Positions 2,167 through 36,971 of a stretch of 64,000 bases of DNA are shown here, in pieces; position 1 is the first letter of the stretch; every line of letters begins with the position of its first letter. The position numbers and the translations under genes were made by a program. The DNA comes from an uncultured beta proteobacterium (lineage in GTDB: Bacteria; Pseudomonadota; Gammaproteobacteria; Burkholderiales; Burkholderiaceae_C), in assembly GCA_903875275.1 (NCBI GenBank), contig CAIQVX010000359.1, positions 1 through 64,000 on the forward strand, read 5' to 3'. The notes under the pieces were generated by a model. That model had not been told where the DNA came from, did no database searches, and was given only the letters and a program-made list of their open reading frames with translations.

Positions 2167-2211
2167 TTGTCGGCGGGTGAAAGTACAGTTGGATCTAAAT
2201 TGAACTTAGTG

Positions 2212-10443: not shown

Positions 10444-10490
10444 GTAAGCCGTTCACCACACCAACGTCAACCTATCTTTACCAGGCTCCC

Positions 10491-12851: not shown

Positions 12852-12869
12852 CTCTGGCATGGTCGCACC

Positions 12870-13997: not shown

Positions 13998-14006
13998 GGG
14001 CCGGCA

Positions 14007-14501: not shown

Positions 14502-15902
14502 TCAGCTAAGCAGTTCTTCGGGCTGCCTGCAAACCTTTAGGCCCTGCAGTGAAAAGCCATTGCTCTTGCCCGGGTAAATGCGAACCTTGGTAAAACCGCT
14601 GCCGGTTGAAAACAAAGGTGTTTTCAGCGCATGCGCTGCATCATCACCCGGCACCGCCAATGTGAAGCGACGCGTTGCCACACCGGGCCCGGAAGCCTCC
14701 AGCGTCAGCGTTTTGGCGCCGGCGCTGGTGGCCTGGGCACTCAGGTAATCGAGCTTCTCGACCGGCTTGTCAAAGCCGATTTCGACAAAATCACTGTCGT
14801 TGGTGGCGGCAACGGCCAGGTCCGAGCCCCTGAGGTTGGCCGCGTTCGCTGCCAGTCCCAGCGGCGCCAGTCTGGCGCCCACGGCCGATGCCTTGCAACT
14901 GCGCTGCACCAGCGCAGAGACGCGCAGCAGCCATTCGGTGTTGTTGCTTGCGTAGCGGGCTTCGCGGTACATGTAGTCAGGCGGCGCGCGCATGTCGCGC
15001 TCTGGCATCTCCCAAATCATGAGTTTGGGTGGCTGTGTCTGGAAGGCATCATCGCGGAGATAGCTCTCCAGACCGACCCAGGAACCCTGATCAGCACCCA
15101 CAGAAACGCTCAGAAACTCACGCTGCAGTGCAAAGCGCAACGCATCCTGAAACCCGGTCCAGGCGCTCGAGTAGCTGCTCCCCATCAACGTCAAACCAAG
15201 GGCAGGCGCGTTGCCCAGCAGGTCCTGCTTGGCAGTTTGAGGCCGACTGACCTTGATCGGCGTCACCTGCTCGAACGCCATGATCGGTGAGTCCGGTGGC
15301 AACTGGTCTGTCAGATCCCTTCGCCTGGAAGTCTGCCGTCGCAAGTTGGTCATCTCAAATTTCTCCTCTGGCAGAGCGTCCAGTACTTTTTTCAGAGCGG
15401 AGTGTGCATCCAGCGCGGCTTTGACCGCCTGCGCCGCCACCATCGCGCCAACAGGTGTCCAGTGCGTGTCCAGCCGGTAATACAGCGGTGTTGCACTGGC
15501 GCGCTGCGGGCTGGTCATGAACGCGGTATTGAGGTCGATGATGTTGACGTGGGCGGCCTGCAGAACCTTGCTCATGCGCTCGTAATTGCCTTTCATGTAG
15601 TCATTCACCCTGACATCGTCCGGAAGGAACTCGGAATAGATGCGCATCTTCAGGGGCACCATCGCCACGGCCATGCTGATGCCATTGGCCGACAGCACTT
15701 TGTTGACACGTTGAATCAGGTCAATCGACGTACCCGTCGCCGCCATGTCGGTGGTGTCCGATATTTCGTGCCGATAGAAGAGCCAGTCGCTCTTGCCAAC
15801 AATGCCGGCGGGAGCCTCCGCCGCCGCCAGGCCGGCCATGCCGGTCGAGCTGGCGATCACTGCGCCAAAAATCCATTTCCCTGGTGTGTTGTTGTTCATC
15901 AT
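14502..15902 (-). CDS. AlgX/AlgJ-like SGNH polysaccharide O-acetyltransferase
   Basis: The 466-residue protein has a signal peptide (about residues 10-30) and the SGNH-like domain shared by AlgX and AlgJ. The segment DWLFYRHE comes early, LDTHWTP near residue 143 supplies the Asp-x-His pair, and GSSYS near 241 supplies the Ser nucleophile. The last about 130 residues are beta-rich (ATNDSDFVEIGF, SNGFSLQGL) and resemble the carbohydrate-binding module at the C-terminus of AlgX. In alginate synthesis AlgX places acetyl groups on the chain in the periplasm. In the Wss system related proteins act on cellulose. Here it is followed by an algF-like gene upstream on the same strand, but no AlgI-type MBOAT acetyl-donor protein lies in the window. 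The substrate is inferred to be one of the adjacent glycans. Confidence 0.82.
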   Translation of the reverse strand: MMNNNTPGKWIFGAVIASSTGMAGLAAAEAPAGIVGKSDWLFYRHEISDTTDMAATGTSIDLIQRVNKVLSANGISMAVAMVPLKMRIYSEFLPDDVRVNDYMKGNYERMSKVLQAAHVNIIDLNTAFMTSPQRASATPLYYRLDTHWTPVGAMVAAQAVKAALDAHSALKKVLDALPEEKFEMTNLRRQTSRRRDLTDQLPPDSPIMAFEQVTPIKVSRPQTAKQDLLGNAPALGLTLMGSSYSSAWTGFQDALRFALQREFLSVSVGADQGSWVGLESYLRDDAFQTQPPKLMIWEMPERDMRAPPDYMYREARYASNNTEWLLRVSALVQRSCKASAVGARLAPLGLAANAANLRGSDLAVAATNDSDFVEIGFDKPVEKLDYLSAQATSAGAKTLTLEASGPGVATRRFTLAVPGDDAAHALKTPLFSTGSGFTKVRIYPGKSNGFSLQGLKVCRQPEELLS

Positions 15903-15933
15903 TCACTGCTCTCGTCAAAGTCAAAGTCCGGAT

Positions 15934-16641
15934 TCATTTCCCGGTGTAGCGCTCAATCTTGTTTTGCACCGCGCGCGCCGTCAGTTTGCCGCCATCGCCG
16001 GGAAGCAGCAAAACGCTGTAGGTGCCGCCCTGGGCCATGGCCAGCGAAGTACGCGCCAGTGCTGTCTTGTCGCCACTGCGGACGGCCATCAGCTCGATCG
16101 AAATCGGATTCACCAGGATCGAAGTTGACACGCCGTAAGACAGGCCCAAGAACACTTTGGTGTTGCCGTCTGCGGTGAGCACATCCAGCGTGCCGGCCTT
16201 GGCGTCAAGGTGATAGACCGTCAGCAGTGCCTTGAGTTTGTTGGAATTGGCCTTGTCCTCAAACACGGTAGGTGCCACATCCGCTCGCAAGGCAGCAAAA
16301 GCCACCGTCATGGCTCGTCCGCGCACAACATCAAGCGGTGCTGTCAGAAGCGCTGCAGACTTGCCGGATGCATGAATGGCGATGCTGTGTTTGCCGGCGC
16401 TGAGCACCATGTAGTCGCTGGCCTCACCGGCGCCAAGCTTGCGGATGCGAAGCTGGCCATCGACAAGAATGTCGACCGCCGCATCGCGACTGGCCAGCAA
16501 GACGCGCACATAAGCCGAGTCCGCTGGCGGCTCGGGGTCATAGAGCAAGCCGGCGGACTGCGCCCACAGGCCGGTACACAGGCACGCCAGCAAGGCGGCC
16601 AGCATCGGACCCCAATGTCTCGCGGAGATGCGAAATGGCAT
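15934..16641 (-). CDS. algF: AlgF-family periplasmic polysaccharide acetylation protein
   Basis: The 235-residue protein has a signal peptide ending near LWAQSA. It then has the AlgF-like opening LYDPEPPADSAYVRVLLAS, followed by two beta-sandwich-like halves. AlgF is a periplasmic adaptor needed for alginate O-acetylation and interacts with the acetyltransferases AlgJ/AlgX; WssG is its counterpart for acetylated cellulose. The gene lies 31 bp upstream of the AlgX-like gene and 52 bp downstream of the deacetylase-like gene, so the three probably form one minus-strand transcript. Members are divergent, so the family call rests on the opening motif, the length and the neighbour. Confidence 0.75.
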   Translation of the reverse strand: MPFRISARHWGPMLAALLACLCTGLWAQSAGLLYDPEPPADSAYVRVLLASRDAAVDILVDGQLRIRKLGAGEASDYMVLSAGKHSIAIHASGKSAALLTAPLDVVRGRAMTVAFAALRADVAPTVFEDKANSNKLKALLTVYHLDAKAGTLDVLTADGNTKVFLGLSYGVSTSILVNPISIELMAVRSGDKTALARTSLAMAQGGTYSVLLLPGDGGKLTARAVQNKIERYTGK

Positions 16642-16693
16642 GTCAATCCTTCAAGCTCAAACAGGTTGATTTCAAACCCATGATAAACACAGA

Positions 16694-18532
16694 TCAGCGA
16701 CCGGCGCTGACCGGCGGTTGATCGAAATAGACACCCCAGACGTATTCGCCGGGGGCCATCCCCTCCAGCACCACAGCGCTGCGCCAGTTGTCCACGCTGG
16801 TTATCCTGGGCACTTTGCCTATGCCCCCGGGAGTGACCAGCCGCAGCAATGCCCCTGACTCCGGCAGGTTGACCCACACCGATACCGGCTGTCCGAGCGG
16901 ACCCGATCCGGTGACAGTGACCTTGAGCTGAATGCCGACCGCAGCACTCTCCAGTCTGGCACTGACCCGCGCGCGCTCACGCCACCAATCGGCCACCTGA
17001 GTCGCAGTGGTCACCCAGACGCGGCCGCGCCGGGCTTTGAGACTGTCAAAAAACTCTGCCAACTGCTCTTTGCTCAGCATGCTCTGCCCGGGCACACTGA
17101 CAATCGACAGTCCGGCCATTTTGTCAACCAGATCGAGTTCCGCAAGAAAGGTCTTCATGCCCACTTCCGGCTCAGCGTCAATCAAGTCTTCGGGCGGACT
17201 TTGTGTGCGCGGCAGAAACACCATCGGCCTGGCCGTATTGACCACACCCGCGCTCTGCGAGAAATAAGGCAAGCGCGCGTCGCCAGTTCCCATGAAACCG
17301 AGGAAATGGCCAACCCCGCGCTCCTGCAACAGCCTTTCTGTGGTCGCATCGTAGGAATCCATTGGGGCGCGAAAGCCGGCGCTGGTGGGGAGGTTGAATC
17401 CGGCCTCCTTCATTTCAGCGACCATGGTTTCCAACCGTTTGCCCTGCGTCACAGCCGCCTGGTCCTTGAAGCCTTCAAAGCGGTCGCCATGGTGATCCAC
17501 TTCATGGCCCTTTGACTGAATTTGCTTGAGTATTTTGGCCGATTTCGGAGCACTGTCGCTGAGCAGGTAGTAGGTTGCGCGCAGGCCTGCTTCCTCGAGG
17601 GCTTTCGCGAACAACAGGTCTGCGTCGACCATCACGTCAATCGCCCCCACCGCCACCATCAGCGCGCTGGCGTATGGGTGCGGCCAGGTGCTCACAAAAG
17701 CGTCGGGTTGGCGCAGCAGCCACATCAGTGCGTTGTGGGCAATCGCCTCCAGTGCCTTTGGATCGGCCGAGCGCCAGAGTGGTTCCGGGTAGCCCAGCAC
17801 CACTGAACGCGACAGTCTTCCGCTGCTCTGCCGACGTTCGTCAAACACAATGGTGCTGCTGGCCTTGCCCGAGCTGGCGCTACGCGACCAGTCCATCAGG
17901 TTGGCAGCCGTCTGCCCGCCGAGCATGCGCAGCGGGTACCAGCCCTGGGCATATTCAAGCCAGACTCGCAGGCCCGCAGGCAGGTCGTGCAAGACGGGGT
18001 TGTCACCGTGCAATATCAGAAACGTGTCTTCCTTCTCGCCCTCATTGGTCCCGACCACCTTGACGTCAAGGGCACTCTCCATGAAGTCATAGCCACGCCA
18101 TTCACCGCTCTCGTTGCGCACACCTGTCATCCAGGTCGACAACACGGCGCCGCCTTTGCCACGAAAGTCAATGATGGCCTGCTTCTCGCGCTCCGACAAA
18201 GCCTGGGTTGAGGGCAACAGCAAGACGCCAGGCTGCAGTTTTTCCAGTTGTTCGACCGTTTGCACCGTCTGGAAAGGGATCCGGTATTTGCGCAGGAACA
18301 GGTCCCAGGTCCGCACGCTTTCGTTGGCGTCCATACCTCTGGCCGTGAGCCGAGCGCGCGTTGTCGCCGACGCATAGAGCTGCACCCGCTGGACCCGGAT
18401 TGCGCTCGCCATGCCAACGTCCGCTGGCGTTGCTGCCACGCCAGTGCCAGGTAGCCACAGCGCCACGGAAATCAGGACCAGGCAAGCCTCTGCAAGACGC
18501 CATCCCTGCAGCCACTTATGCCGACATTGCAT
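16694..18532 (-). CDS. Secreted polysaccharide-deacetylase-like protein, active site apparently degenerate
   Basis: The 612-residue protein has a signal peptide and a first domain of Rossmann/amidotransferase-like type (VLLLPSTQALSEREKQAI and GKGGAVLSTW near residues 105-140). A NodB-like domain follows (about 285-470), then a beta-sandwich C-terminus. It is paralogous to the deacetylase at 23649-25544 over most of its length. Aligned by eye, the acidic motif 1 of the paralogue (MDTEEG) is replaced by GAIDVM. The second His of motif 2 is lost (HGDRF against HGDVH). Motif 3 GFRAP remains. It may therefore bind glycan without hydrolysing N- or O-acetyl groups. It is divergent from bcsE, with only 42 bases between the starts. 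It probably works with the downstream algF/algX-like genes. Confidence 0.75.
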   Translation of the reverse strand: MQCRHKWLQGWRLAEACLVLISVALWLPGTGVAATPADVGMASAIRVQRVQLYASATTRARLTARGMDANESVRTWDLFLRKYRIPFQTVQTVEQLEKLQPGVLLLPSTQALSEREKQAIIDFRGKGGAVLSTWMTGVRNESGEWRGYDFMESALDVKVVGTNEGEKEDTFLILHGDNPVLHDLPAGLRVWLEYAQGWYPLRMLGGQTAANLMDWSRSASSGKASSTIVFDERRQSSGRLSRSVVLGYPEPLWRSADPKALEAIAHNALMWLLRQPDAFVSTWPHPYASALMVAVGAIDVMVDADLLFAKALEEAGLRATYYLLSDSAPKSAKILKQIQSKGHEVDHHGDRFEGFKDQAAVTQGKRLETMVAEMKEAGFNLPTSAGFRAPMDSYDATTERLLQERGVGHFLGFMGTGDARLPYFSQSAGVVNTARPMVFLPRTQSPPEDLIDAEPEVGMKTFLAELDLVDKMAGLSIVSVPGQSMLSKEQLAEFFDSLKARRGRVWVTTATQVADWWRERARVSARLESAAVGIQLKVTVTGSGPLGQPVSVWVNLPESGALLRLVTPGGIGKVPRITSVDNWRSAVVLEGMAPGEYVWGVYFDQPPVSAGR

Positions 18533-18574
18533 GCTATCTCCCCCTGATCAGGTCAAATCGATTATGATGAAAAA
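18533..18574. promoter_or_regulatory. Short divergent start region between deacetylase-like gene and bcsE
   Basis: Only 42 bases separate the two divergent start codons, so promoters for each gene must extend into the opposite coding sequence or overlap. A TGATGAAAAA purine stretch precedes the bcsE ATG. No operator is recognised. Confidence 0.35.
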
Positions 18575-20518
18575 ATGAGTGGAGCTCGTGCAACGATTAT
18601 GAATGATCCAGTCACCCTTTTGCCAGTTTCTCCAGCGGTACAGCTCAGTATCCGAGGGCTGGACAATCTGACCAACAACCTGATTGTGGGCGGTCTGTAC
18701 ATACTCATTGCAGAAACACCTTCAGCCCGCTTTCCGGTGCTGGCCGGGAGCCTCGGTGCCGCACTCAAGGACGGCCTGCCCTGCACCGTCATCGTACCGT
18801 CCAACCCGGAGTCTTTCATTCAGCGAATCGAGTCCTTCGGCCACTCCATCACGCCCGGGCTGACCACCAGTGATCGCCTGCAGTTCTTTGTCATGCAGGA
18901 TGAGTTTTCGAAGACGATGTTCCGCTACGGCGCTGAGGGTTTTGTCAAGGAGTTGGACCATTTTGAAGTTCCACCGGGCAGCTACCTGGTTTTTGACCAG
19001 GCCGATGAACTGCTCAGCCTGCACGATCTGTCGCTCTCGCTGGACCAGGTGGACGTCATTGGCAAATGGTTGCACGAGCGGCAGATCACCGCGCTGCTGG
19101 TTTTTTCGCGCGTCACCGAGGCTCACGCCAACACACTCAACGCCTTGATGGACAACTTGACCGGGATCGCCCGGCTTGGAGGAAACCGGGAGGGACTGGA
19201 GCTGAACTTCGACTACTGGCAGTCCCCTGACGGCACCGTTGCGGCCAAGAACTTCCGGCTGATCACGCTGGAGTCAGGGCTCTACGAAGCGGGTATGAAG
19301 TCTGTCGCGGTCGAGCAGTTTGCGGGTGAGCCTGGCGAGGAGACCGAGGTCGAACCGCAGGACCTGGAACCTCACTTCTTCTATATGGACCCGGATCTGG
19401 GCAGCGTGGCCAAACAGATGCCAGGCGTCTGGGCGCGGGTTGATACCCTGGTCGGCATGATGCACGCCAGTCGCAGCGCGCGTTCGGGTACTGTGATCCT
19501 GAGATTTCAGGGCGACACCAGCTTGCGTCAGTTGTCGGAAACTGTCCACACACTGCGCATGACCCTGGGACGGCGGGCACACATCGTGGTGCAGGAAAAG
19601 GGGGCTTCCCTGCGCTACCAGAACGAAGCCCTGCTGCTGCGTCTGGGCGCCAATCTGGTGGTGCACAAGGACGTGCCCACCAGCCGTCTGCCGCTATTGC
19701 TTGAGTCGTTGCGCGGCCAGATCTTCAGCCGCGATGTCAACATCAACTTCGAGGCGGCACTCTCCAGCGTCAACCCGAGCCGACTGCGCGGCTACCTTCT
19801 GCCTGCGCGCTTTGTGCGTGAGGTGAATATCATTCTGGAGCGCGCCGAAACCCTCAACGTGCCCTACGCCATGGTGGTTGGCAAGCCGGCACAAAGTACG
19901 ACCATGGTCGATGTCCTGATGCGCATCAAGCTCGCGCGCCCCGGCGATCTGATCACGGCCGACAACAGTTACTGCTATCTATTCCTCAACGCGTGCCCGC
20001 AAACAGTGCTGCTGACAACCCTGGAACGGCTTCTGGGCGGTGCGCTGGAGGACTCGTTCGAGGCCCCAAGATTTCTGGTGGAGAGTGCCGAAGTGGGGGC
20101 TGAACTGGCAGCCCTGACACACGCCGTCGAACACGGCGAGCTGCCAGACTATTCGTCGCTGAGCGAGCCGTTGGAGGTGATCGAGGACGCAGAGCCGGCC
20201 AGGTCGCAGGCATCGGCCGCGACAGCCCTGGCGGCAGTGGTCCCCCTTGGTGCCCCTGCCAGTGCGGCGACAGCGGCTTCGCGCTTCGTGGCACGCGATG
20301 AGGTGCGCTCCCCTGCTGACGCCCGCACCAGCAACATTCGCACCCAGCCACTACCGGGGCCCGACACCGGGGCCGAGCCCGTAGAGCCTGCACAATCGCC
20401 ATCCGCCATGCCGGTTTTTGGAAAGAAGGAAGCGCCCTGGGCCAAGCGCGCTGCGCCGCCTGCGTCCGCTACCGCTGCGGCCAGGAACACGCCTGCGCCG
20501 GCCGATCCAGCTACCTGA
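18575..20518 (+). CDS. bcsE: Cellulose biosynthesis protein BcsE (c-di-GMP-binding GIL domain)
   Basis: The 647-residue protein matches BcsE in layout. An N-terminal degenerate RecA-like region (GGLYILIAETPSARFPVLAG) precedes the middle region and then the GIL domain. That domain contains the I-site-like RPGD near residue 454 within KLARPGDLITADNSYCYLF. In enterobacteria BcsE binds c-di-GMP through an RxGD site and helps assemble and stimulate the BcsA synthase complex at the inner membrane. The C-terminal about 110 residues here are Ala/Pro-rich and probably disordered. The gene is not beside bcsA. It leads a plus-strand run of porin, GT2 synthase and deacetylase genes, which hints that it may also serve that second synthase. 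No bcsF or bcsG is present in the window. Confidence 0.85.
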   Translation: MSGARATIMNDPVTLLPVSPAVQLSIRGLDNLTNNLIVGGLYILIAETPSARFPVLAGSLGAALKDGLPCTVIVPSNPESFIQRIESFGHSITPGLTTSDRLQFFVMQDEFSKTMFRYGAEGFVKELDHFEVPPGSYLVFDQADELLSLHDLSLSLDQVDVIGKWLHERQITALLVFSRVTEAHANTLNALMDNLTGIARLGGNREGLELNFDYWQSPDGTVAAKNFRLITLESGLYEAGMKSVAVEQFAGEPGEETEVEPQDLEPHFFYMDPDLGSVAKQMPGVWARVDTLVGMMHASRSARSGTVILRFQGDTSLRQLSETVHTLRMTLGRRAHIVVQEKGASLRYQNEALLLRLGANLVVHKDVPTSRLPLLLESLRGQIFSRDVNINFEAALSSVNPSRLRGYLLPARFVREVNIILERAETLNVPYAMVVGKPAQSTTMVDVLMRIKLARPGDLITADNSYCYLFLNACPQTVLLTTLERLLGGALEDSFEAPRFLVESAEVGAELAALTHAVEHGELPDYSSLSEPLEVIEDAEPARSQASAATALAAVVPLGAPASAATAASRFVARDEVRSPADARTSNIRTQPLPGPDTGAEPVEPAQSPSAMPVFGKKEAPWAKRAAPPASATAAARNTPAPADPAT

Positions 20519-20598
20519 TCCGGTACGCCAAGTTGGGTACAGGCGCCGCACTATCTATGCAACAATGACACAGGAATAACTAAGGTGGCTCGACTCCC

Positions 20599-22059
20599 AT
20601 GAAACCGTTCCATTGCCCGTCAACCCTTCCATCAGGCCGCGCCAAACCGGTCAGGTCTTTGAAATGGAAGTTAGCCCCTTTTCTCTTGTCGCAGACACTG
20701 GCTTTGCCAGCGCTGGCGCAGACCACCGATTTCTCACCAAGTGCGCCCAGTGGCCGCTCGGGTCTGTCCGGTCCCGGTACGGAGCCGTTGATCCTGGCGC
20801 CATTCAAGTACATTGCACCGTCCAGTGTCGACAGCACCGACCGCGGCGCACCAACCGAACCCGCAAAGCCCAAGCGCAAGCCAGCACACCAGCGCATCGC
20901 CGATCTCAGCGCCGCCGGTGATTACAAGGCCGCTGGCACCGAGGGCCTGGCCCTGATGTCGCGGGACAAGCCCGATGAAGAGTTGCAGCTGATTGTGGCC
21001 AACAGTCTGGCCTGGACCGGTCGCCTGAAAGAGGCAGTGCCCGCGTACCAGGGACTGCGCACCGGGAAATACGCCGATCAGGCCGCCGTGGGCCTGGCCA
21101 GCATTTACCATTGGCGGGGCCGTGACGACCAGGCCTTGCCACTGTACCGGGCGGTTCTGGCCAACGATCCTGGCAACACCAGCGCTCTGGAGGGTCTCGA
21201 TCTGGCCACGCGCGAGACCGCCCCGCGCACCCTGCTCAGCTTTGGCCAGGGCCGGGATTCTGCGGATGACGAGCGCCGCTCCGTCACGCTCAGTCACCGC
21301 TGGCGCGACCGTACCGGCACCCACATTTACGAGGTGGAAACCAGCGGCGTTCTGGACACGCTGCCTGGCGTAGAGACCAGGCAGCAGGACCTGACGTTTC
21401 GTTACCAAAACGTGGGGATGGCGCTCAAACCCAGTCTGGAGTTGAGCATGCCCACCAAGGACGACAATTCCCTGTATGCCAGCGCCAGTGTCAAGCTCTT
21501 TGACGACAAGCTGAGCCTCAGTGCAGGTCGTGTCAACTTTGGACGGATGGCGACGAACCCGAAGGCACTGGCCTTGCATCTGTCGGCCATGCATATCGGC
21601 ATCACGGCATCCAGGGAATTCTCATTCGGCACGCTGCAGGGCAAGATCAATCTCTACGATGTCTCCGACGACAATCTCGTGGCAGGGGGGACCCTGCACC
21701 TGAACTCCAGTTGGAGACCGCTGGGTAGCAATTTCAAGCCCTTCATTGGCATCGAGAGCCGGGGCGCCAAATTCAACACCGCCAACTACTGGTCGCCCGA
21801 GCAGGGAATGGGCATGCTCTATTCCGGGCTGCTCGGGGAGTGGGGGTCGATGGACTGGACACTTTATGCCTCCGGCCAGATCGGCTTGCGTCTCTTTGGC
21901 GATGCCGGCACCAGCTGGAGTGTCTCCGGCGGCGGCAAGTACTGGCTGACACACAACACCGCGCTCAGTGTCAATCTCTGGTCTCTTGACAGTTGGCGCG
22001 ACAACGCCGCCTACCGGGCCCGAGCCGCCACCGTGAATCTGGAAACGCTTTGGAGATAA
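20599..22059 (+). CDS. TPR plus outer-membrane beta-barrel protein (PgaA/BcsC-like glycan porin)
   Basis: The 486-residue protein has a signal peptide ending ALPALAQ, a disordered Pro/Ser/Thr-rich spacer, and about three TPR-like helical repeats between residues 95 and 200. A C-terminal region of amphipathic strands (about 215-486) ends in VNLETLWR, typical of a barrel whose last strand ends in an aromatic followed by Arg. This periplasmic-TPR/barrel plan is that of PgaA and BcsC, which guide poly-GlcNAc and cellulose out of the cell, but the protein is much shorter than either. It is followed directly by a GT2 synthase and a deacetylase, so it is the likely secretin-like pore of that module. 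Family assignment below this level is open. Confidence 0.7.
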   Translation: MKPFHCPSTLPSGRAKPVRSLKWKLAPFLLSQTLALPALAQTTDFSPSAPSGRSGLSGPGTEPLILAPFKYIAPSSVDSTDRGAPTEPAKPKRKPAHQRIADLSAAGDYKAAGTEGLALMSRDKPDEELQLIVANSLAWTGRLKEAVPAYQGLRTGKYADQAAVGLASIYHWRGRDDQALPLYRAVLANDPGNTSALEGLDLATRETAPRTLLSFGQGRDSADDERRSVTLSHRWRDRTGTHIYEVETSGVLDTLPGVETRQQDLTFRYQNVGMALKPSLELSMPTKDDNSLYASASVKLFDDKLSLSAGRVNFGRMATNPKALALHLSAMHIGITASREFSFGTLQGKINLYDVSDDNLVAGGTLHLNSSWRPLGSNFKPFIGIESRGAKFNTANYWSPEQGMGMLYSGLLGEWGSMDWTLYASGQIGLRLFGDAGTSWSVSGGGKYWLTHNTALSVNLWSLDSWRDNAAYRARAATVNLETLWR

Positions 22060-23417: not shown

Positions 23418-23418
23418 C

Positions 23419-23649
23419 ATGGATCTTATTTCCATCCTGGCAACGGTCATTCTGATCACCACCGTCGGCACCATGGTGGTCGGCGTTGGCGCCTATGCGG
23501 CTTTCAAGCTGCGTGACAAGCGCCGTCCAAGCAGCAACCGGGCTGATGAGACTCTGAATGCCGGTGAACAGCTGGAGCCTGTGTTTCTGAGGCGCTATGT
23601 CCCTGGGGTGCCAGTTCAGGCGGCACCCGAGTCGGCACCTGATGCGTAA
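23419..23649 (+). CDS. Small one-pass membrane protein between GT2 synthase and deacetylase
   Basis: The 76-residue product starts one base after the synthase stop and its TAA overlaps the next ATG (TAATG), so it is translationally coupled on both sides. It has one strong membrane helix (about residues 4-29) followed by a basic stretch (KLRDKRRP) and a flexible acidic/Pro-rich tail. Its place resembles that of PgaD, a small membrane partner needed by PgaC, but PgaD has two helices and no sequence match can be claimed. It is probably a stabilising or regulatory subunit of the synthase. Confidence 0.65.
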   Translation: MDLISILATVILITTVGTMVVGVGAYAAFKLRDKRRPSSNRADETLNAGEQLEPVFLRRYVPGVPVQAAPESAPDA

Positions 23650-26336: not shown

Positions 26337-26361
26337 CAGGCCAGTGCTGCCATGGCCATCA

Positions 26362-29300: not shown

Positions 29301-30180
29301 CAAAACGCGCGCCTGCCGCTTCCACGTCACCCTGTTCGAGCAACGTGAAGCCTGCCTGGCTGGGTTTCTGCCGCACACCTTTCCTGGCATCGGCCAGTGA
29401 CTGGTCCAGTGCCGCGAGTCGCTCCTGCACAGCCTGATCATCAGGATTCCTGGACAAATAGCCTGTCATCAGGGCGCGGTCCGCGCGTCGCGCATCGAGC
29501 CAGACCAGCGCCTGGCTCAAACTCTGTCGCACTTCCGGATCGGCCTGACTCATGGCCGACAGACGGCGTATGCCTTCGCGCCGCGTTGCCTCCCGGTAAG
29601 TCAGGTGCCGCGCCAGCGCGAACACATAGCGCGGATTCTCAGGGCTGGCACGTACCAGTTCCTCCAGACCGCCGCGCGCCTCATCCCAGCCCTCCCGGGT
29701 CGCACCGAGGGTCTGGTAGTACTCCAGGCCCAGTTGCCCGGTCGGCTTGCTGGTACCCAGGGCGCTGCGGTAGTTGCTGGCAGCGGCTTCCGGTTGACCG
29801 GCTTGCGCCAGTTTGCGTGCAGCACGGATAGCAGGCGCGTTTTTTCCGGCCCTGAGCGCCATCTCGAGTTCTGCCAGACCCGCTGGCGCTGCCGCCAGTT
29901 GGGTTGCCCGCAGGTAGAGCTCCTGTGCCTGCGCCAGTTGGCCAGCGCGCGCCTGAAGGACGCCCAGTCGCACCAGCCCCTCGGGATGATTCGCATCGGC
30001 GCGCAGCAGTTTCTGCCAGGCCCCGATCGCAAGATCATCCCGGCCGCTCTGCTGCCAGTAGCGTGCCTGCTCCACCAGCTTGCGGGTAGCCGCATCGTCA
30101 GCCGCCCAGGCCGATGAAAGACCACTGCCAAGCGCAACAATCAGAAGAATCAGTTTTTTCATTTGAATCACATTGTGCAT
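26362..30180 (-). CDS. bcsC: Cellulose synthase outer-membrane subunit BcsC (TPR plus beta-barrel)
   Basis: The product of about 1272 residues has a signal peptide (KKLILLIVALG, ending AWA), then about 800 residues of TPR helical repeats such as AIGAWQKLLRADANHPEGLVRLG. A Pro/Ala-rich hinge follows, then the BcsC C-terminal barrel (about 920-1272, ending YLRYAFDGLGPAFGFQ). BcsC spans periplasm and outer membrane and conducts the glucan chain to the surface. The ATG at 30180 has GGGAG ten bases upstream and overlaps the bcsZ stop; the ATG at 30162 (MKKL) is the alternative. E. coli BcsC is somewhat shorter (1157 residues), so extra TPR units are likely here. It follows bcsZ in the usual order. 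Confidence 0.92.
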   Translation of the reverse strand: MHNVIQMKKLILLIVALGSGLSSAWAADDAATRKLVEQARYWQQSGRDDLAIGAWQKLLRADANHPEGLVRLGVLQARAGQLAQAQELYLRATQLAAAPAGLAELEMALRAGKNAPAIRAARKLAQAGQPEAAASNYRSALGTSKPTGQLGLEYYQTLGATREGWDEARGGLEELVRASPENPRYVFALARHLTYREATRREGIRRLSAMSQADPEVRQSLSQALVWLDARRADRALMTGYLSRNPDDQAVQERLAALDQSLADARKGVRQKPSQAGFTLLEQGDVEAAGARFEAILAKKPRDADSLGGLGTVRLRQQSFAEALRLLDQAMLRDRRNAGRWKQARDSAHYWTLIQQVVAAREAGKLIESEEKLAQATKLDDQQVLGQVLWGDLWLEKRQLDKAEAMYRLALKTSASDPGAFRGLIAVLLRTAREAEAMALISTLDEATAQKMGGLNQLKANAMLKLAEADERAADYRAAVTRLEVALMLDPADPWVRLALARQYQRLGDPGRAQTMLEALLTIQPKLPEALHARALLYAEQKMWPEALATIERIPVPARNANILDDLRRISVNLQVRRAQQLYAQGNLRQAREVAQQAELQASGDISLSALVAGCWSGLGQPAEALRLMRDIVQRLPADNIDLRIQYAGVLLDDKRDAELTPVLRALAQSPRLSTTQQEDINKIILAFTLRQIDALRQTGQLDDALRIVSQALERSDEPRLLMALARIENSAGDSRKALATAEEVIAREPGDLDHRLFAIAVALAAKAPDTAALHAEVALEIAPEDVRALMAMARVQRESGNPEQALQYLERAQALQRPRVANSARGTDLAAAPANEHGGLLPIPELRESKGVASASRPALARVPEVLTPVITARSITAAPAPVPAPREPTLEDEISATKLKLALTMDVTPRFRTRTGEPGLGRLSEFEFPIELALPSGGNGAFTLKLTPTVLGVGTLNRSDPGNIARVGSAGLGPLQAGFDPVPDQDASGVGLSVGYRDEDMSLRIGTTPLGFLVTHLVGELSFATRLEDFTLKGVLSRRAVTDSVLSAAGMRDPQTLQVWGGVVKTGAQFNFNFGGDERGVYADLGAAQLSGQGVKDNTQFEASMGAYWRIYQSSSAKFKAGLNMTAMAYRDNLGFYTLGHGGYFSPQQYFSLGIPWELSGRRGALSYQIGGDFSLQKFSQDRVAYFPNDAKLQSAWVLKAGALYPTYYEAESGSGLGYNLFGSFEYLLAPRFTLGGRLTFENSRNFSQQAGSFYLRYAFDGLGPAFGFQ

Positions 30181-31331
30181 GACGAACCCACTCCCCATTG
30201 CAAGCGACCGTCCGGCGCAAACCGGAAACGCTGATCCATCCATCCCAGGGCAAACAGCCCCAGGGCCTGCTCATAGTAAACCGACGGAACGCCACCCATT
30301 GCAATAATTCTGAGTCGCTGCTGTCGGGCTGCCGATCTGGCTCCCACGGCCTCCAGAAAGGGCAGCAGGGCCGCTGAAAAGCCGCCCGGGCCACTGCCCC
30401 CCTGGGCCCGACCCGAACTGGCATCCACCATGACCGGCGGCACCAGCAGCTGCTCAACCAGCCTCGTCATCCCCTTCATGCGCGCCAACAAACGCACACG
30501 GTAAGGGTCTTCGACCGGGGTCATGGCCGCCCAGAGATAGGTCCGGATGGCGTCAAAACCACCCTTGAAACCGATCGCCGGATCGAGCACGAAGCCGCGC
30601 TCCGACACCGCAACCCAGTCTGGCACCAGGTACTGTGGTGTGACCGATTCCAGCATGCTGACGGTGCTGTCCGCCAGCGCAGTCCACACGCCGGACGGCA
30701 CCTCCGTGGCCAGCCCGCGCAGCACCGGCATGGGCAGGTAGCTCGGGTTGAGCTGCCAGCCTCCACTCTTCAGGGCAAAGCCCTGCGGCCCGGGCAGCAA
30801 CACCGGGCCCAGGCCCGCCACATTAATCACAAGTTCCTTTTGAATGCGCGCCTGCATCAGTTCTGCACTGGCTTGCAGGCTGCTGTCAGGCCAGCGTCGT
30901 GCCGCCTGAAACAGGACATAGACCAGCCAGAGATCAGCGTCGCTGGCCGCGTTGCTGTCCAGCACGCCCCAGCTACCGTCGATGCGCCGGCCCCAGTGCC
31001 AGGCCAGCAACCGCGCAGACAGGTCGCCCTGTGCCAGATTGGCGCGGGTCCAGCTCAGCAGCCGATCAAACGTGGAACGGTCGTTGGCGACGAGCGCAAA
31101 GAACATGGCGTAGGCCTGCCCTTCCGAGGTCGAGTGACTGTCCGCGGAATAATCGACAACACGTCCGTCGCCCTGAATGAACTTCTCCCTGAACGTGATC
31201 CAGTCCGGCCAGCTGTCGCAATTCGCCGCCAGCGAGTCCGTCAGCGGGCTGGTGGCGGCGGCCAGCGCGGTCAGCACACTCAGGAAGTGCCGCCGCGACT
31301 TCATGCGAACCAGTTGTCTGCCGACCGACAC
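30168..31331 (-). CDS. bcsZ: Periplasmic endo-1,4-beta-glucanase BcsZ (GH8)
   Basis: The 387-residue protein carries GH8 features: the acid Glu in HSTSEGQAYAM near residue 70, DADLW near 130 and GGFDAIRTYLWA near 259, where the Asp corresponds to the base of E. coli BcsZ. It cuts nascent cellulose in the periplasm and affects fibre quality and yield. GTG at 31331 has AAGG about ten bases upstream and starts just after the bcsB stop; ATG at 31304 is the alternative. The N-terminus contains KSRRHFLSVLTALAAA, which fits a twin-arginine signal rather than the Sec signal of E. coli BcsZ. The family and place in the operon are certain; the export route is inferred. Confidence 0.93.
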   Translation of the reverse strand: MSVGRQLVRMKSRRHFLSVLTALAAATSPLTDSLAANCDSWPDWITFREKFIQGDGRVVDYSADSHSTSEGQAYAMFFALVANDRSTFDRLLSWTRANLAQGDLSARLLAWHWGRRIDGSWGVLDSNAASDADLWLVYVLFQAARRWPDSSLQASAELMQARIQKELVINVAGLGPVLLPGPQGFALKSGGWQLNPSYLPMPVLRGLATEVPSGVWTALADSTVSMLESVTPQYLVPDWVAVSERGFVLDPAIGFKGGFDAIRTYLWAAMTPVEDPYRVRLLARMKGMTRLVEQLLVPPVMVDASSGRAQGGSGPGGFSAALLPFLEAVGARSAARQQRLRIIAMGGVPSVYYEQALGLFALGWMDQRFRFAPDGRLQWGVGSSCTM

Positions 31332-31342
31332 CGCCGCGCACC

Positions 31343-33676
31343 TTACTCGGACTTGTGTTGCATGCGCCGCGCAGCAACCTCCCGCAAAGCGCGGTACATG
31401 AAGGTCGCCAGCAGGATGCAGATCAAGATACCGATCAGGCTCGCCAGCACCGGGTGACTGGCAAAGGCCCAGCGCAGATGGATCGTCATAGGCAGCGAAC
31501 CGAGGTAATAGGTCTCACCGACCTTGGCATGCCGATCCCCCTTGTCGTCCACCAGCACAAAGTCGCCCTGAACGCTCTTGATGCGCACCGGGTCGAGCAG
31601 GATGTCTGCAATCTTCAGCAAATCAGCCGCCTTGTCGGCATACAACAGCACAACGCTGCGCCGCGCCTGCAGCGGTGACTCAAACGCCATCAGACTTGTC
31701 AGGTCGCCACCGCCTTTCAATTTCAGGATGCCGTCCGGGCGCGGTATGTCCTGCACATCCTTCTCTTCCCAGCGATAGAGGGCGCGCCGGAAGATGTCAG
31801 GCTCGCGCAGCCGTTGCTCACCATCGACCTGCAGCAGCGGCAGACGGTCCGCCCACTTGGACATCAGGCTCTGGTCCTGCGCCGAACCGATGACAATCAG
31901 ATCGCGCTGAGCCACCTTGTCGACTTCCGTGGACGAGACCACCGCATGACGCAGGGCCGGATAGGCAGTAGCCTCACCCATGCGTCCTGCGATCATCAGG
32001 TAAGCGCCGATTTCGTCCGCGTTGGGTTGTTCCGGCAACACAAATGCTGTCTCCGACAAATCGGCCAATCGGGTGAACGGGAAGCCGATCTTGCTGAACG
32101 AGGCGAGATCAGGCAAGGCGGCGTAACGCGGAAATCCGCTGAAGTCGAGCGTCGATTCCGGATCGATGGCACCGCGCAGGTTGTCGGGCAGCGTGTCCCT
32201 GCATTCCCCTTCCTTGATCAGGTCAAAGAAGTAGTGAAACTGAAGCTGGTTGCGCCCGTCAAATCGGTGCAACGGTACGTGCAGCAGTTCCTCCTGGTAG
32301 TTCGGCGTCTTGCCGAAGAAGGGTGTCTTCAGCAGATTCTTGCTTTCCGGCTTCCTGCCGGGTTCATCCAGAGCCAGCGCGCGAACGAATTCCTCGTTGA
32401 AACTGACATTCAGGCTCGACTTCTTGCCCAGTGGCGGCGCTGAAAAACGGTACTTCAAGTCCAGCGGTACACCCTGGCTGCGCCAGGTAAACAGGTCGGG
32501 TGCGACCCGGAAATTGACCCGGACAACATCCGGAAAGAACCCCTGCACCTGCAGGTCTTCGGGCTGTGCCAGTTCGGCAAACCGGACCGGTCTGTCGCTC
32601 GGCACCCAGGCCGGCGCGTCATAGGGTTTGCGCGGCGGTGGCTCGACGTCCTGAGAGACCACAATCCGTCGCCCGCTGGGTGTGCCATTGCCCAACACCA
32701 GGGCGCGCACCGCGCGCAGCAGTTCTTCTTCGTTATCGCCCGTGATCAGCAGCAGCTTGGCGGCCGGATTGGTGGGGTGAGGCTCGATCGAGACGCTGGC
32801 CTGACCCGTCCCTGCCAGCGTACCCAGCTTGTCCCCGCCCTGCAGGACCACCACCGCGTTGCCGTCAGGCAGTGCGTTCAGGAAGGCCGGAAAGCGCGCG
32901 CCGCGATAGCTCGCCAGACTGCCAAACCAGGAGGCCATCACGCCTGCCGCCTTGAGTGTGCCAAACGAGGGCGCACTCCCGAACACAAAGGGAAGCTTCA
33001 GGCTCTGGTTATCGCGCTTGTCAAAAAAGGGCGCAGGCAGGTACTTCAGGTCGCCCGCCATGGCCAGCGGCACCAGTGTCAATTCAAGTCGCCCGAGATT
33101 GCTCAGTTCAAGCCACAGGGAACTGTGCAGGGGGTCCTCGCACTTGTAGGTGTAGTGCCCGATCAGGCGAAACTGGAGCTTGTTGTAATCGGTGAAAAAC
33201 CGTGGATCCAGGTCGATTTCGCGCTTGTTGCCAAGCACCTTGTCGTGCGGCAAAGCAATGACGGAGGATATTTCGCCATTGAGCATCACGTTGAGGTGGC
33301 TCAATTCCGGCAGCAGCGAAGGGGAATAGGCATAGTCAAACTTGAGCTTGGCCGAGGCGACGACTTCATCGGACCGGATCGCAAACGGCAGCGACATGGA
33401 CCCTTCGACCCCGCGCAGGCGGATCGGTGTCAGTGCACCAAGCTCCTTGAACGTGTACGACATGACGCGCGGGCGCGCCAGGGCAATCGCCGGACTGCTG
33501 CTTGCCAACGCTGCAGCGGCAACTGGGCTTTCCTTCTCCGTGATGATGGCCGATTTGTGCGTTCTGGCTTCCACGGGCGTGCCAAACAGAGTCAGCAAGC
33601 CCGTGCACAGGGCAAGCACCAGGGCAAGCTTCAGGACCGGGTCGCGCAGAGGCCCCGGCATTGCAAACAGCTTCAT
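31343..33676 (-). CDS. bcsB: Cellulose synthase periplasmic subunit BcsB
   Basis: The start is ATG 33676, which overlaps the bcsA stop as ATGA and has GGAGG ten bases upstream; the frame is open to 33703. The 777-residue product has a signal peptide, then the BcsB core with two carbohydrate-binding and flavodoxin-like pairs (for example SMSLPFAIRSDEVV, LRLIGHYTYKCEDPLHSSLW, SLNVSFNEEFV). A C-terminal membrane helix (HPVLASLIGILICILLATFM) follows. BcsB caps the periplasmic side of BcsA and guides the emerging glucan, and its tail helix is required for BcsA activity. The length matches E. coli BcsB. Confidence 0.94.
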   Translation of the reverse strand: MKLFAMPGPLRDPVLKLALVLALCTGLLTLFGTPVEARTHKSAIITEKESPVAAAALASSSPAIALARPRVMSYTFKELGALTPIRLRGVEGSMSLPFAIRSDEVVASAKLKFDYAYSPSLLPELSHLNVMLNGEISSVIALPHDKVLGNKREIDLDPRFFTDYNKLQFRLIGHYTYKCEDPLHSSLWLELSNLGRLELTLVPLAMAGDLKYLPAPFFDKRDNQSLKLPFVFGSAPSFGTLKAAGVMASWFGSLASYRGARFPAFLNALPDGNAVVVLQGGDKLGTLAGTGQASVSIEPHPTNPAAKLLLITGDNEEELLRAVRALVLGNGTPSGRRIVVSQDVEPPPRKPYDAPAWVPSDRPVRFAELAQPEDLQVQGFFPDVVRVNFRVAPDLFTWRSQGVPLDLKYRFSAPPLGKKSSLNVSFNEEFVRALALDEPGRKPESKNLLKTPFFGKTPNYQEELLHVPLHRFDGRNQLQFHYFFDLIKEGECRDTLPDNLRGAIDPESTLDFSGFPRYAALPDLASFSKIGFPFTRLADLSETAFVLPEQPNADEIGAYLMIAGRMGEATAYPALRHAVVSSTEVDKVAQRDLIVIGSAQDQSLMSKWADRLPLLQVDGEQRLREPDIFRRALYRWEEKDVQDIPRPDGILKLKGGGDLTSLMAFESPLQARRSVVLLYADKAADLLKIADILLDPVRIKSVQGDFVLVDDKGDRHAKVGETYYLGSLPMTIHLRWAFASHPVLASLIGILICILLATFMYRALREVAARRMQHKSE

Positions 33677-35901
33677 TTTTTCCATACCTCCAGACGCCTC
33701 CACTGCGCAGTCGGGCCCAACCTTCTGAGCATGCGAAGCAGGCCATCAACACCGACACCCAGCACCTCGCGCAAGCCGCGCAGAGGCCTGTCAATATCGC
33801 GGTCGGACAACCAGCGCTGCCACGCATCGCCGCGCGAGTAGGTCGCAGCGACCAGTGCACGGTAGTCTTCCAGACTCATATTGTCAAAACGGGCACGCAG
33901 GACCCGCCCCTGATTGAAGACCACAGCCGCCGGGATGGCAAATTCGCGATCACCCCGAAACAGCGAGATTCTGACCGGACTGCCCTGCTCAACGGCGAGT
34001 TCGACTGGCAGCTTGATGGCCAGGCCACCTTCCGAGAAGTCTTCCGCTTCACACGCGACCGTGCGCCCGTTGGGCAAGCGGATCATCGCCGGCAGACTGA
34101 TTTGAACCCGCCAGTGCTTGCGGATCTGGCGCGCTTCCAGCGCCACCGACATGGTGGCTGCGAGAATGGTGAGGTTGTAGAGCGTCCACAGCAGGTTGAA
34201 CAGCACGGTGCCGAATTCGTGGGTATTCCACCAGAACAGGCGGCCAACGCCGATGCCCAGTCCAATCACGTTGAAAGCCAGAATGACAAGGTAAGGCAGC
34301 GAGATTTTCCAGTCAAAATATTCCTTGTCAACGCGTCCCCCCTTGGCGGTGACGTTGAAATTGCCCAGCTTCGGGTTGATGATCGCCAGCGTCGTTGGCA
34401 CCATGATGTACCAGGCCAGTGCCGTCTCGTAGACTTCGGCCCAGAAAGTATGGCGGTGGTTGCCCTGCATCCGGGAATTGGCAATATTGGCATGAATCAG
34501 GTGGGGCAACGCATAGACCGCGATCAGGTCGGCCGAGGCCTGGATCACGTGCGCCTCAAAAAAAAGGTAGGTCAGCGGCGCGGTCAGAAAGATGATCCGT
34601 GGCAGTCCGTAGAAGAAGTGCATCATGGCATTGAGGTAGCACAGGCGCTGGGGCCAGCGCAGTCCCTTGCCAAACAACGGGTTGTCCAGACGGAAAATCT
34701 GCGCCATGCCGCGCGCCCAACGGATGCGCTGCCCCACGTGCGCCGAAAGGCTTTCGGTGGCCAGACCCGCGGCCTGAATCACGCCCAGGTAAGCCGTGTT
34801 GTAGCCCCGGCGGTGCAGCTTGAGCGCGGTATGGGCGTCTTCGGTCACCGTCTCGATCGCCACCCCGCCAACTTCCAGCAGCATGGTGCGCCGCAGGACG
34901 GCGCAGGAACCGCAGAAGAAGGCCGCGTTCCAGAGATCGTTGCCGTCCTGGACCAGTCCGTAGAAAAGCTCACCCTCATTGGGCATTTGCCGGAACAACT
35001 GCAAGTTGCGCTCGAACGGATCGGGTGACAGGAAATGGTGCGGCGTCTGAACCATGGCAAGCTGGCGATCTTGCAGGAACAGCCCGACCGTCGCCTGCAG
35101 GAAAGTCCGGGTAGGAATGTGGTCGCAATCAAAAATGGCGATCAACTCGCCATTCGTGTCGGGCAGTGCCGCGTTGATATTTCCGGCCTTGGCATGGAGG
35201 TTGTTCGAACGTGTCACGTAATTGACGCCAACCGAGGCAGCAAACTCGCGGAAATCGTCACGGCGCCCGTCGTCCAGCAGATACACATTCATCTTGTCGC
35301 GTGGCCAGTCCATGGCAAGCGCGGCAATGACCGTTGGCATGACCACCGACAGGGGCTCGTTGTACGAGGGTATGAAGACATCCACCGTGGGCCACAACGA
35401 CAGGTCCTGGGGCATGGGCACCGGCTGGCGGCGCAGCGGCCAGGCGGTCTGAAAGAAGCCGATGATCAGAATGAGCCAGGCGTAGAACTCAGCAGCCAGC
35501 AATCCCAGCCCCAGCAGCAGATCCGCACTGATGTCCAGTTGCATGCTGGTGGTAAAACGCCAGTACAGGTACCGTGTGGATGCCAGCACCGACAGGCTGA
35601 CGAGAACCAGCGTCACCAGGGTTCCGACATAGCGGCGGATGTACAGGGCGAGCGCCGCGATCACCAGTGAAAACACCAGCTGCTCGTTGCGTGAAAACGG
35701 AATTGTGATCAGCAGCAGGAACAGCACCAGGCAGCCGATCGATGTCACCACGAGCACGCCCGGTGCCGACCATGCCGACCAGTTCACCAGCCGGTTGCCC
35801 GACTCGTTGAGAAGGCCGTAAAGGTAGCGCGGGTTGAACAGCGAGCGAGCACCCGCGCCCCGGTGCTCGCGCCAGCGCGACGGAATCGAACGCAGGTTCA
35901 T
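33673..35901 (-). CDS. bcsA: UDP-forming cellulose synthase catalytic subunit BcsA
   Basis: ATG 35901 overlaps the bcsQ stop (ATGA), giving 742 residues. Membrane helices flank a GT2 domain with DVFIPSYNEP, LLDDGRR, IFDCDHIP, the catalytic VTEDAH and QRIRWARG. A C-terminal PilZ domain shows the RxxxR element in RQIRKHWR and the DxSxxG motif as DFSEGG, the two parts that bind c-di-GMP. BcsA polymerises glucose from UDP-glucose and passes the chain through the inner membrane; c-di-GMP relieves autoinhibition. All catalytic motifs are intact. It is the centre of the operon bcsR/P-like, bcsQ, bcsA, bcsB, bcsZ, bcsC, bcsQ-2, with overlapping starts and stops showing tight coupling. Confidence 0.96.
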   Translation of the reverse strand: MNLRSIPSRWREHRGAGARSLFNPRYLYGLLNESGNRLVNWSAWSAPGVLVVTSIGCLVLFLLLITIPFSRNEQLVFSLVIAALALYIRRYVGTLVTLVLVSLSVLASTRYLYWRFTTSMQLDISADLLLGLGLLAAEFYAWLILIIGFFQTAWPLRRQPVPMPQDLSLWPTVDVFIPSYNEPLSVVMPTVIAALAMDWPRDKMNVYLLDDGRRDDFREFAASVGVNYVTRSNNLHAKAGNINAALPDTNGELIAIFDCDHIPTRTFLQATVGLFLQDRQLAMVQTPHHFLSPDPFERNLQLFRQMPNEGELFYGLVQDGNDLWNAAFFCGSCAVLRRTMLLEVGGVAIETVTEDAHTALKLHRRGYNTAYLGVIQAAGLATESLSAHVGQRIRWARGMAQIFRLDNPLFGKGLRWPQRLCYLNAMMHFFYGLPRIIFLTAPLTYLFFEAHVIQASADLIAVYALPHLIHANIANSRMQGNHRHTFWAEVYETALAWYIMVPTTLAIINPKLGNFNVTAKGGRVDKEYFDWKISLPYLVILAFNVIGLGIGVGRLFWWNTHEFGTVLFNLLWTLYNLTILAATMSVALEARQIRKHWRVQISLPAMIRLPNGRTVACEAEDFSEGGLAIKLPVELAVEQGSPVRISLFRGDREFAIPAAVVFNQGRVLRARFDNMSLEDYRALVAATYSRGDAWQRWLSDRDIDRPLRGLREVLGVGVDGLLRMLRRLGPTAQWRRLEVWKK

Positions 35902-36662
35902 CGAGCGGAGGGCTCCAGCAGACAACTCGCAAGGCGCTGAAAGTCCTGCGTCGCCTGACATCGCGGATCGTAGACCAGGACCGGCTGCAGGAATGCCAGA
36001 GCCTCACTCACCGCTTCGTCCCGGTGGATACCAACCGGCAGCAGGCGCTTGCCCAGTCGTTGCCGCAGCACTTCTCCCATATCGCGATTCAGCCGAACCG
36101 CTTCGTCCATCTGGTTCAGCAGGTACACCGTCTCCAGATCCGGACGCTGAAAACGCATCTGTTCGATCCAGGATTCCATCGCCATGATCGTCGAGTAGGA
36201 ACCGGCATCGGGCAGCAACACGATCAGTACCAGATCGGCACAGGCAAAGGCCTGATTGAGGTAAACCGAAGGTCCCGGGGGCAGATCGATCAGCACCACG
36301 TCGTCTTCACCAAGGCCCGACTGCGCCAGTTGCCTGCCGAGCCAGTCGGGCTCGCTGGCCAGAATGTTCTCGAACGCTTCCCGCTCGGCCTCGCTGACCG
36401 CCCCGTACGGAATGCAGTTGACACCGTAGGCGCTGCCCACCAGCACGTCGCGCCAGTTGCGCCGCCGCAGCGACTGACGGCAGACACTCTGGCGCTCCAG
36501 TGCGTCCAGACCCAGATGCAGATGCAGCGCGTTTTGTGGATCGAGGTCGACCGTGCTGATACAGCCTTCCCCAAGTTCAGCCGCCATCGCAACGGCCAGA
36601 TTTGCAGTTACGGAGGTTTTTCCCACACCCCCTTTCATCGACACAACAACAACAACGCTCAT
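35898..36662 (-). CDS. bcsQ: BcsQ/MinD-like ATPase upstream of bcsA
   Basis: The 254-residue protein has the deviant Walker A SMKGGVGKTS at its very start. It then has STVDLDPQNALHLHLGLD and VVLIDLPPGPSVYLNQ, the signature of BcsQ. In E. coli BcsQ binds BcsR and BcsE in the cytoplasmic vestibule of the synthase and is essential for cellulose secretion. The stop overlaps the bcsA start, and a short BcsR/BcsP-like gene precedes it by 36 bp, so the arrangement is the classic one. A paralogue occurs at the other end of the operon (25533-26336). Confidence 0.92.
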   Translation of the reverse strand: MSVVVVVSMKGGVGKTSVTANLAVAMAAELGEGCISTVDLDPQNALHLHLGLDALERQSVCRQSLRRRNWRDVLVGSAYGVNCIPYGAVSEAEREAFENILASEPDWLGRQLAQSGLGEDDVVLIDLPPGPSVYLNQAFACADLVLIVLLPDAGSYSTIMAMESWIEQMRFQRPDLETVYLLNQMDEAVRLNRDMGEVLRQRLGKRLLPVGIHRDEAVSEALAFLQPVLVYDPRCQATQDFQRLASCLLEPSAR

Positions 36663-36698
36663 ACTGCTCCCGGCTGCAAAATTGTAGAAAGAAGAGGG

Positions 36699-36971
36699 TC
36701 AGCCCCTGGACCTCGCCTTTTCCCTGATCCTGGCACCGCCCTCAAGGCGACCAAAGACCTGGCTCAGCGGACTGTATTCCAACCAGCCCTGTTTTTGCTG
36801 CGCTGACAGGGGCGGCGGCATGACACGCTGGTCAGGCGCCATGGACTTCATCAAGGGCCATTTGTTCTCTGCAAGGTCAGCATCGGCGTCGCGGTTGAAC
36901 TCCCTGAATTCACTGCTGCCGGACCAGAAAGTCCGAAACAGCGCACCCGCATCGTCGACACGTTTCGACAT
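36699..36971 (-). CDS. BcsR/BcsP-like small cellulose biosynthesis protein
   Basis: ATG 36971 follows a GGGGA site at about nine bases, giving 90 residues. The frame is open further upstream, but that part overlaps the neighbouring hydrolase and looks spurious. The segment ALFRTFWSGSSEFREFN followed by ENKWPLM resembles the short conserved core of BcsR/BcsP proteins (LFxxF, a Tyr/Phe-x-Glu element, then WPLL). These proteins are encoded directly before bcsQ; BcsR binds BcsQ and stabilises the complex, and BcsP is a betaproteobacterial equivalent. The tail is basic. The family call rests on this short motif and on position. Confidence 0.6.
   Translation of the reverse strand: MSKRVDDAGALFRTFWSGSSEFREFNRDADADLAENKWPLMKSMAPDQRVMPPPLSAQQKQGWLEYSPLSQVFGRLEGGARIREKARSRG

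Follow-up and report, generated by a model that had tools for sequence, protein, structure and literature searches.

The question raised by the window considered here, a 64,000-nucleotide stretch on contig C359 of a 3.24 Mb assembly (416 contigs, 87% complete), is which polymer its alginate-type acetylation genes serve. A preliminary description had recognised a cellulose (bcs) operon with two MinD-like (BcsQ) proteins and, nearby, AlgX- and AlgF-like genes, and had remarked that an MBOAT acyltransferase was missing; it concluded that a rearranged Wss-like system was present, with acetyl groups supplied from elsewhere or by another route. Profile matches bear out the named genes, their strand and their proximity to the acetylation genes, and no MBOAT was seen within the stretch. 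A rearranged Wss-like system is not, however, the best reading, since AlgX and AlgF go with a separate glycosyltransferase (GT2) module and the MBOAT and AlgJ with a catalytically dead BcsA homolog, designated BcsA*. The reading favoured here, with a probability of roughly 0.64, is that the genome specifies a second synthase-dependent exopolysaccharide, likely to contain amino sugar and to be O-acetylated, that is assembled on a dead BcsA/BcsB scaffold, one half of the system being encoded in the window and the other on contig C98.

The bcs genes of the window lie in the order BcsP/R-Q-A-B-Z-C-Q, all on the minus strand as judged by profile matches. The BcsA protein scores above the cellulose synthase family cut-off and retains all four of the D, D, D and QxxRW motifs; the start of BcsC is probably downstream of the start of its open reading frame (ORF). 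This is an ordinary hybrid-type cellulose operon, and it is one of two systems in the window. The 8.9 kb that separate BcsQ2 from the AlgX- and AlgF-like genes are filled by genes for a deacetylase-like protein (Deac1), BcsE, a TPR/porin protein, the GT2 and a second deacetylase (Deac2). BcsE, porin, GT2 and Deac2 form a plus-strand operon headed by BcsE, from which Deac1-AlgF-AlgX diverge on the minus strand. The VDDGS, DGD, AEDCD and QRYRW motifs of the GT2 are intact, as in processive enzymes of the family; its nearest match is PgaC, but it attains only 219 bits against the 422-bit cut-off of the PgaC/IcaA equivalog TIGR03937. The porin was modelled with AlphaFold as a TPR region plus a 16-strand barrel (mean predicted local distance difference test score, pLDDT, of 80), with BcsC, PelBC and the polysaccharide outer-membrane secretin 4y25 as its top folds in the PDB, and it scores 22 bits versus 367 on the PgaA model. 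Neither PgaB nor PgaD was identified among the neighbours of the module, the whole genome not having been searched for them by model. The module thus holds a membrane glycosyltransferase, a TPR scaffold, a beta-barrel exporter and modification enzymes, the features by which synthase-dependent exopolysaccharide systems are recognised.

The modification enzymes differ in their apparent competence. The AlgX-like protein, whose nearest solved structures are AlgJ (4o8v) and AlgX (7ula), has the catalytic Asp-His (DTHW) and Ser (GSSYS) motifs, and of 30 homologs nearly all retain them. Deac2 probably is enzymatically active, given that its MDTE, HGDxH and FRAP motifs are conserved in most of 34 rows. 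In the Deac1 family, conversely, HGDxH has become xGDxF/Y in 15 of 15 aligned rows with loss of the catalytic histidines, and Deac1 is probably a pseudoenzyme, the second in the same system; members of this family usually adjoin AlgF/AlgX. The RxGD I-site of BcsE, equivalent to R415TGD of the E. coli protein and predicted to bind cyclic di-GMP (c-di-GMP), is kept in 27 of 29 rows.

Searching the genome that contains the window located a single MBOAT gene, at C98:46417-47049. A supply of acetyl groups from elsewhere was therefore rejected, an MBOAT and AlgJ pair being present in the same genome; the search of the rest of the genome that the preliminary description had proposed did find the enzyme, but inside a dead-BcsA operon and not in an active operon of the Wss type. 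This second bcs operon reads BcsD-BcsP-like-BcsQ-BcsA*-BcsB-TPR-BcsQ-MBOAT-AlgJ and is devoid of BcsZ and of a BcsC barrel, its TPR protein being only 169 amino acids long and without a barrel. The BcsA* protein is of full length (717 amino acids) and aligns along the whole of E. coli BcsA. It has lost DDG, DxD, TED and QxxRW, together with the RxxxR and DxSxxG motifs by which PilZ domains bind c-di-GMP, and it scores 282 bits on TIGR03030, for which 699 bits was taken as the cut-off for a canonical BcsA. Directly downstream of the dead-BcsA operon lie genes for a PEP-CTERM protein, an EpsA regulator, a WcaJ-type sugar transferase and the exosortase XrtB (L002:12608-15456 and L004:1468-2379, both on contig C98), and ORFs of equal length follow the operon in genomes G254 and G255.

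Loss of the catalytic motifs is not peculiar to this genome. Among the BcsA-like proteins compared it is all-or-none: 26 canonical ORFs have every motif, 19 BcsA* proteins are without DDG, TED and QxxRW, and one extra BcsA, split across two ORFs, has kept its motifs. All BcsA* sequences fall on one side of a tree branch with support of 100/100, some on long branches. In three Undibacterium genomes (G267, G268 and G270) the open frame at the BcsA match runs to about 1510 amino acids, suggestive of a fusion between BcsA and BcsB. One might suppose that BcsA* is a pseudogene decaying within a relic operon and that its pattern of occurrence is accidental. It ranks among the fastest-changing genes of the operon, with a ratio of nonsynonymous to synonymous substitution rates (dN/dS) of 0.15-0.26, two to three times that of BcsB from the same operon (0.06-0.11), and in one homolog a stop codon interrupts the matched region. 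The ratio is nevertheless well below 1 at all distances, the reading frames are open and near full-length in 18 of the 19 genomes, BcsB and BcsQ of the operon are strongly constrained, and BcsA* has acquired residues of its own, namely an NFP motif in place of the PilZ DxSxxG in every row compared and a common LWRxRW-type N-terminus. On the strength of the dN/dS values, the open frames and the shared new motifs, the pseudogene explanation was rejected as scarcely credible; BcsA* is maintained by purifying selection.

The distribution of this constraint along the protein is informative. Mean identity within BcsA* is 44% at the N-terminus, versus 19% for canonical BcsA, and 42% versus 45% in the PilZ domain, whereas it drops to 33% versus 74% in the catalytic core and to 30% versus 65% in the late membrane helices. 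In E. coli, BcsR plugs the interface between the glycosyltransferase and PilZ domains while BcsQ buttresses PilZ, and the beta-proteobacterial BcsP has been modelled likewise (PMC11470070). Because of these contacts, the conserved parts of BcsA* would be those expected to bear partner proteins, a pattern suggestive of a former enzyme turned scaffold.

The occurrence of the two halves of the proposed system was examined in a family sample of 251 genomes (the window's genome and 250 others), in 36 close relatives retrieved by a scan for the GT2 across 84,980 species genomes, and, for BcsA*, in an order-wide sample of 399 genomes. The last yielded no BcsA* besides that of the window's genome, the other proteins having kept QRIRW-type motifs. 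Within the family, BcsA* was found in two of the 250 other genomes: G122, which is complete and of the same genus, and G131 (Comamonadaceae Jr-29jan18-9), where porin-GT2-Deac2-BcsD-P-Q-A*-B-TPR-Q-MBOAT-AlgJ are contiguous. The 36 GT2 relatives include Rhodoferax, Polaromonas, Undibacterium, Gallionella, Noviherbaspirillum, Silanimonas, Polynucleobacter and others, and in Noviherbaspirillum malthae the entire gene set is contiguous. BcsA* is present in 17 of them, G131 among these, so that with G122 and the window's genome 19 distinct genomes have it, and all 19 carry the GT2 module. In the family sample the three BcsA* genomes all fall among the five with the GT2 (p 4e-6, phylogeny ignored). 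BcsA* and the GT2 are thus co-inherited. In a tree of the GT2, one branch (support 88/68) splits the BcsA* genomes from those whose only BcsA is canonical. Within the BcsA* side the presence of canonical BcsA changes several times, from which it follows that the GT2 and BcsA* are a stable pair there. A GH18 glycosidase (L025:14407-15546 and homologs) was flagged automatically in eight of 17 dead-BcsA loci, nine with G256, and near the GT2 elsewhere; it occupies the place where cellulose operons have the GH8 cellulase and hints at an amino-sugar polymer. It was not found in the window's genome and was accordingly dropped as part of the window's system.

Twelve of the 19 BcsA* genomes, including the complete G122, have no BcsA above the TIGR03030 cut-off, and the remaining seven, including the window's genome, hold both types. 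Coexistence in those seven would be expected if BcsA* acted on the canonical cellulose synthase as a regulatory subunit or a decoy, competing for instance for BcsB, BcsQ or BcsP; the twelve genomes with no canonical BcsA led to the rejection of a role solely as partner of a live BcsA, and leave the decoy explanation very unlikely. These twelve have also largely shed the remainder of the cellulose apparatus, since a BcsC barrel occurs in only one and the BcsZ GH8 cellulase in two, as compared with 21 and 22, respectively, of 23 genomes in the comparison group; none of the BcsA* operons held a BcsZ. Four GT2 genomes have neither type of BcsA; these are small or fragmentary assemblies, and in one (G084) the contig ends just past BcsD, a gene in the BcsP position and BcsQ.

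The same genomes bear on the assignment of the acetylation genes. All four acetylation proteins are encoded in the genome, and the canonical bcs operon, with its two BcsQ proteins, is adjacent to the AlgX/AlgF module, as it is in several relatives with the GT2 module next to bcsABZC. MBOAT, AlgJ, AlgF and AlgX could then constitute a dispersed Wss-like system that acetylates cellulose produced by the BcsA of the window, along the route of the Wss model in which acetyl groups pass from MBOAT to WssI to WssF and onto cellulose (PMC10302187). On this view the GT2 module would be unrelated to its neighbours, and BcsA* would have arisen as a by-product of gene duplication. This is considered unlikely. 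MBOAT and AlgJ are located in the dead-BcsA operon; the twelve relatives with the GT2 module and BcsA* but no canonical BcsA include 11 with MBOAT, which is present in 34 of the 40 genomes compared. Moreover, close AlgF orthologs occur in five of five family genomes with the GT2 and in none of 24 with a BcsA-like gene but no GT2 (p 8e-10, again ignoring phylogeny), with one further ortholog in G222, of the same genus as G131. Synteny, which the preliminary description had proposed to compare, points the same way: the BcsE-porin-GT2-Deac2 operon is conserved in the 36 loci, AlgF and AlgX accompany it, often with Deac1 and divergently, and only some loci are beside bcsABZC, there often being no cellulose gene within 10 kb. 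On this comparative evidence the acetylation genes of the window are assigned to the GT2 system. Weaker AlgF relatives were seen in other family members (L157-L160; G017:C1:65241), the one in G017 being separated from a canonical BcsA by some 10 kb; such matches could point to genuine systems of the Wss or alginate type, G017 being a candidate Wss-like case.

The two-part system favoured here could feasibly operate as follows. The GT2 would make and translocate the polymer, while BcsA* and BcsB, with BcsQ, BcsP and BcsD, would build a scaffold in the inner membrane and periplasm on which the synthase and modifying enzymes are held in position. The retained RxGD site suggests that c-di-GMP is sensed by BcsE now that the PilZ site is lost. 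If homology to the alginate and Wss systems is a guide, acetyl groups would pass from MBOAT to AlgJ, AlgF and AlgX for O-acetylation, and Deac2 may take off N-acetyl groups, in which case the polymer probably contains N-acetylhexosamine. Export would proceed via the TPR-porin, as its predicted fold implies, and not via BcsC.

Several points weigh against this interpretation. The GT2 does not need a dead BcsA, as 16 GT2 genomes have canonical BcsA only; the support for the split in the GT2 tree is moderate; and the co-occurrence p-values, being blind to phylogeny, are indicative only. Most genomes compared are fragmented metagenome-assembled genomes, G122 being the complete exception, which makes absences less sure, and since the window module and the C98 operon are on separate contigs of an incomplete assembly, their linkage in this strain is a proposal. 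Deac1 is a further apparently dead enzyme that is given no step in the mechanism, and the AlphaFold model of a BcsA*, built from a three-row alignment, is too poor to use (pLDDT 50). Contact between BcsA* and the GT2, the identity of the polymer and its acetylation are what we infer from sequence.

Features of the window and the matches on which their assignments are based
Feature	Position	Strand	Basis
AlgX-like SGNH O-acetyltransferase (putative)	14502..15902	-	Pfam ALGX E 3e-55
AlgF-like periplasmic acetylation accessory protein	15934..16641	-	Pfam AlgF E 5e-15
Deac1, deacetylase-like	16694..18532	-	Pfam Polysacc_deac_1 E 4e-8
BcsE-like putative c-di-GMP sensor	18575..20518	+	Pfam CBP_BcsE E 2e-68; E. 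coli BcsE structures
Predicted TPR + 16-strand beta-barrel outer-membrane exopolysaccharide porin	20599..22059	+	AlphaFold model, PDB fold matches
PgaC/NodC/hyaluronan-synthase-like GT2	22050..23417	+	NCBIfam PgaC_IcaA E 9e-65, under its cut-off
Deac2, membrane-anchored CE4-type deacetylase	23649..25544	+	Pfam Polysacc_deac_1 E 1e-6
BcsQ2 (WssJ-like position)	25533..26321	-	TIGR03371 194 bits, above cut-off
BcsC with full outer-membrane barrel	26362..30243	-	Pfam BCSC_C E 1e-96
BcsZ, GH8 cellulase	30168..31331	-	Pfam E 4e-62
BcsB	31343..33703	-	Pfam E 2e-211
BcsA, canonical catalytic	33673..35961	-	TIGR03030 888 bits vs cut-off 699
BcsQ1	35898..36662	-	Pfam CBP_BcsQ E 1e-36
BcsP/BcsR-like N-terminal plug protein	36699..36971	-	BcsP model E 2e-9, below its cut-off; BcsR E 0.004

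Beyond the features tabulated, a separate capsule or exopolysaccharide cluster (window 982-4327 and 9274-14501) abuts the AlgX gene and encodes an acyltransferase-3, a WecG/TagA glycosyltransferase, Wza, Wzc, a GT4 sugar-phosphate transferase and a NusG/RfaH-like protein; a YjbH-family exopolysaccharide outer-membrane protein (Pfam E 4e-20) is encoded at 4349-6508. The cellulose operon is adjoined, at 39703-43053, by the gene for a protein of 1116 amino acids with an adenylate/guanylate cyclase domain, an AAA ATPase and TPRs.

The Bcs machinery is usually taken as a sign of cellulose production. The conserved lineage described here has BcsB, BcsQ, BcsP, BcsD and BcsE and no working cellulose synthase, and would be wrongly annotated on the basis of such markers. 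With a dead BcsA that selection maintains, scaffolding by the Bcs complex is set apart from catalysis and can be put to the test. The known synthase-dependent polymer systems, of which one survey listed five while finding only four acetylated-cellulose operons (PMC7112194), would gain a new member in this cluster.

In the open-access literature searched on inactive or degenerate BcsA, on combinations of BcsE, BcsD and BcsP and on the porin/GT2/deacetylase set, no such system came to light, and comparison was made with the nearest known ones. The Wss system of P. fluorescens SBW25 likewise has bcs genes, BcsQ/MinD-like proteins and AlgX/F/I/J homologs (WssF-I) (PMC10302187), and homologs of all four of the latter are encoded in the present genome. 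In Wss an active BcsA (WssB) shares one operon with AlgF/I/J-like genes, whereas here there are two loci, the active-BcsA operon is without such genes and the MBOAT/AlgJ locus has a dead BcsA; furthermore, the GT2, porin, BcsE and deacetylases accompany the acetylation genes, and relatives keep this set without a cellulose synthase. Cellulose may also be O-acetylated in this strain. Similarity to the poly-N-acetylglucosamine (pga) system extends to a PgaC-like GT2, a deacetylase and a TPR/barrel porin with a 4y25-like fold, but the GT2 is below the PgaC equivalog cut-off, the porin and deacetylases are of different families, no PgaD was identified among the module's neighbours, and a Bcs scaffold and alginate-type acetylation have been added. 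Type I and hybrid Bcs systems share the BcsD-BcsP-BcsQ-BcsA-BcsB order and BcsE as a second c-di-GMP sensor (PMC11470070), from which the C98 operon differs in the loss of the catalytic and PilZ motifs from its BcsA, in having neither a BcsC barrel nor BcsZ, and in its association with another GT2. The alginate AlgI/J/F/X proteins are matched by an MBOAT, two SGNH proteins with their catalytic motifs kept and AlgF, which are associated here with a Bcs scaffold as well as a GT2. Neither the window nor the C98 site showed an alginate locus, no dedicated search having been made. Finally, Komagataeibacter too has a second bcs operon, bcsII, that includes acylation genes and putatively serves acylated cellulose; the synthase there is regarded as active, unlike the second BcsA of the present genome, which is dead.

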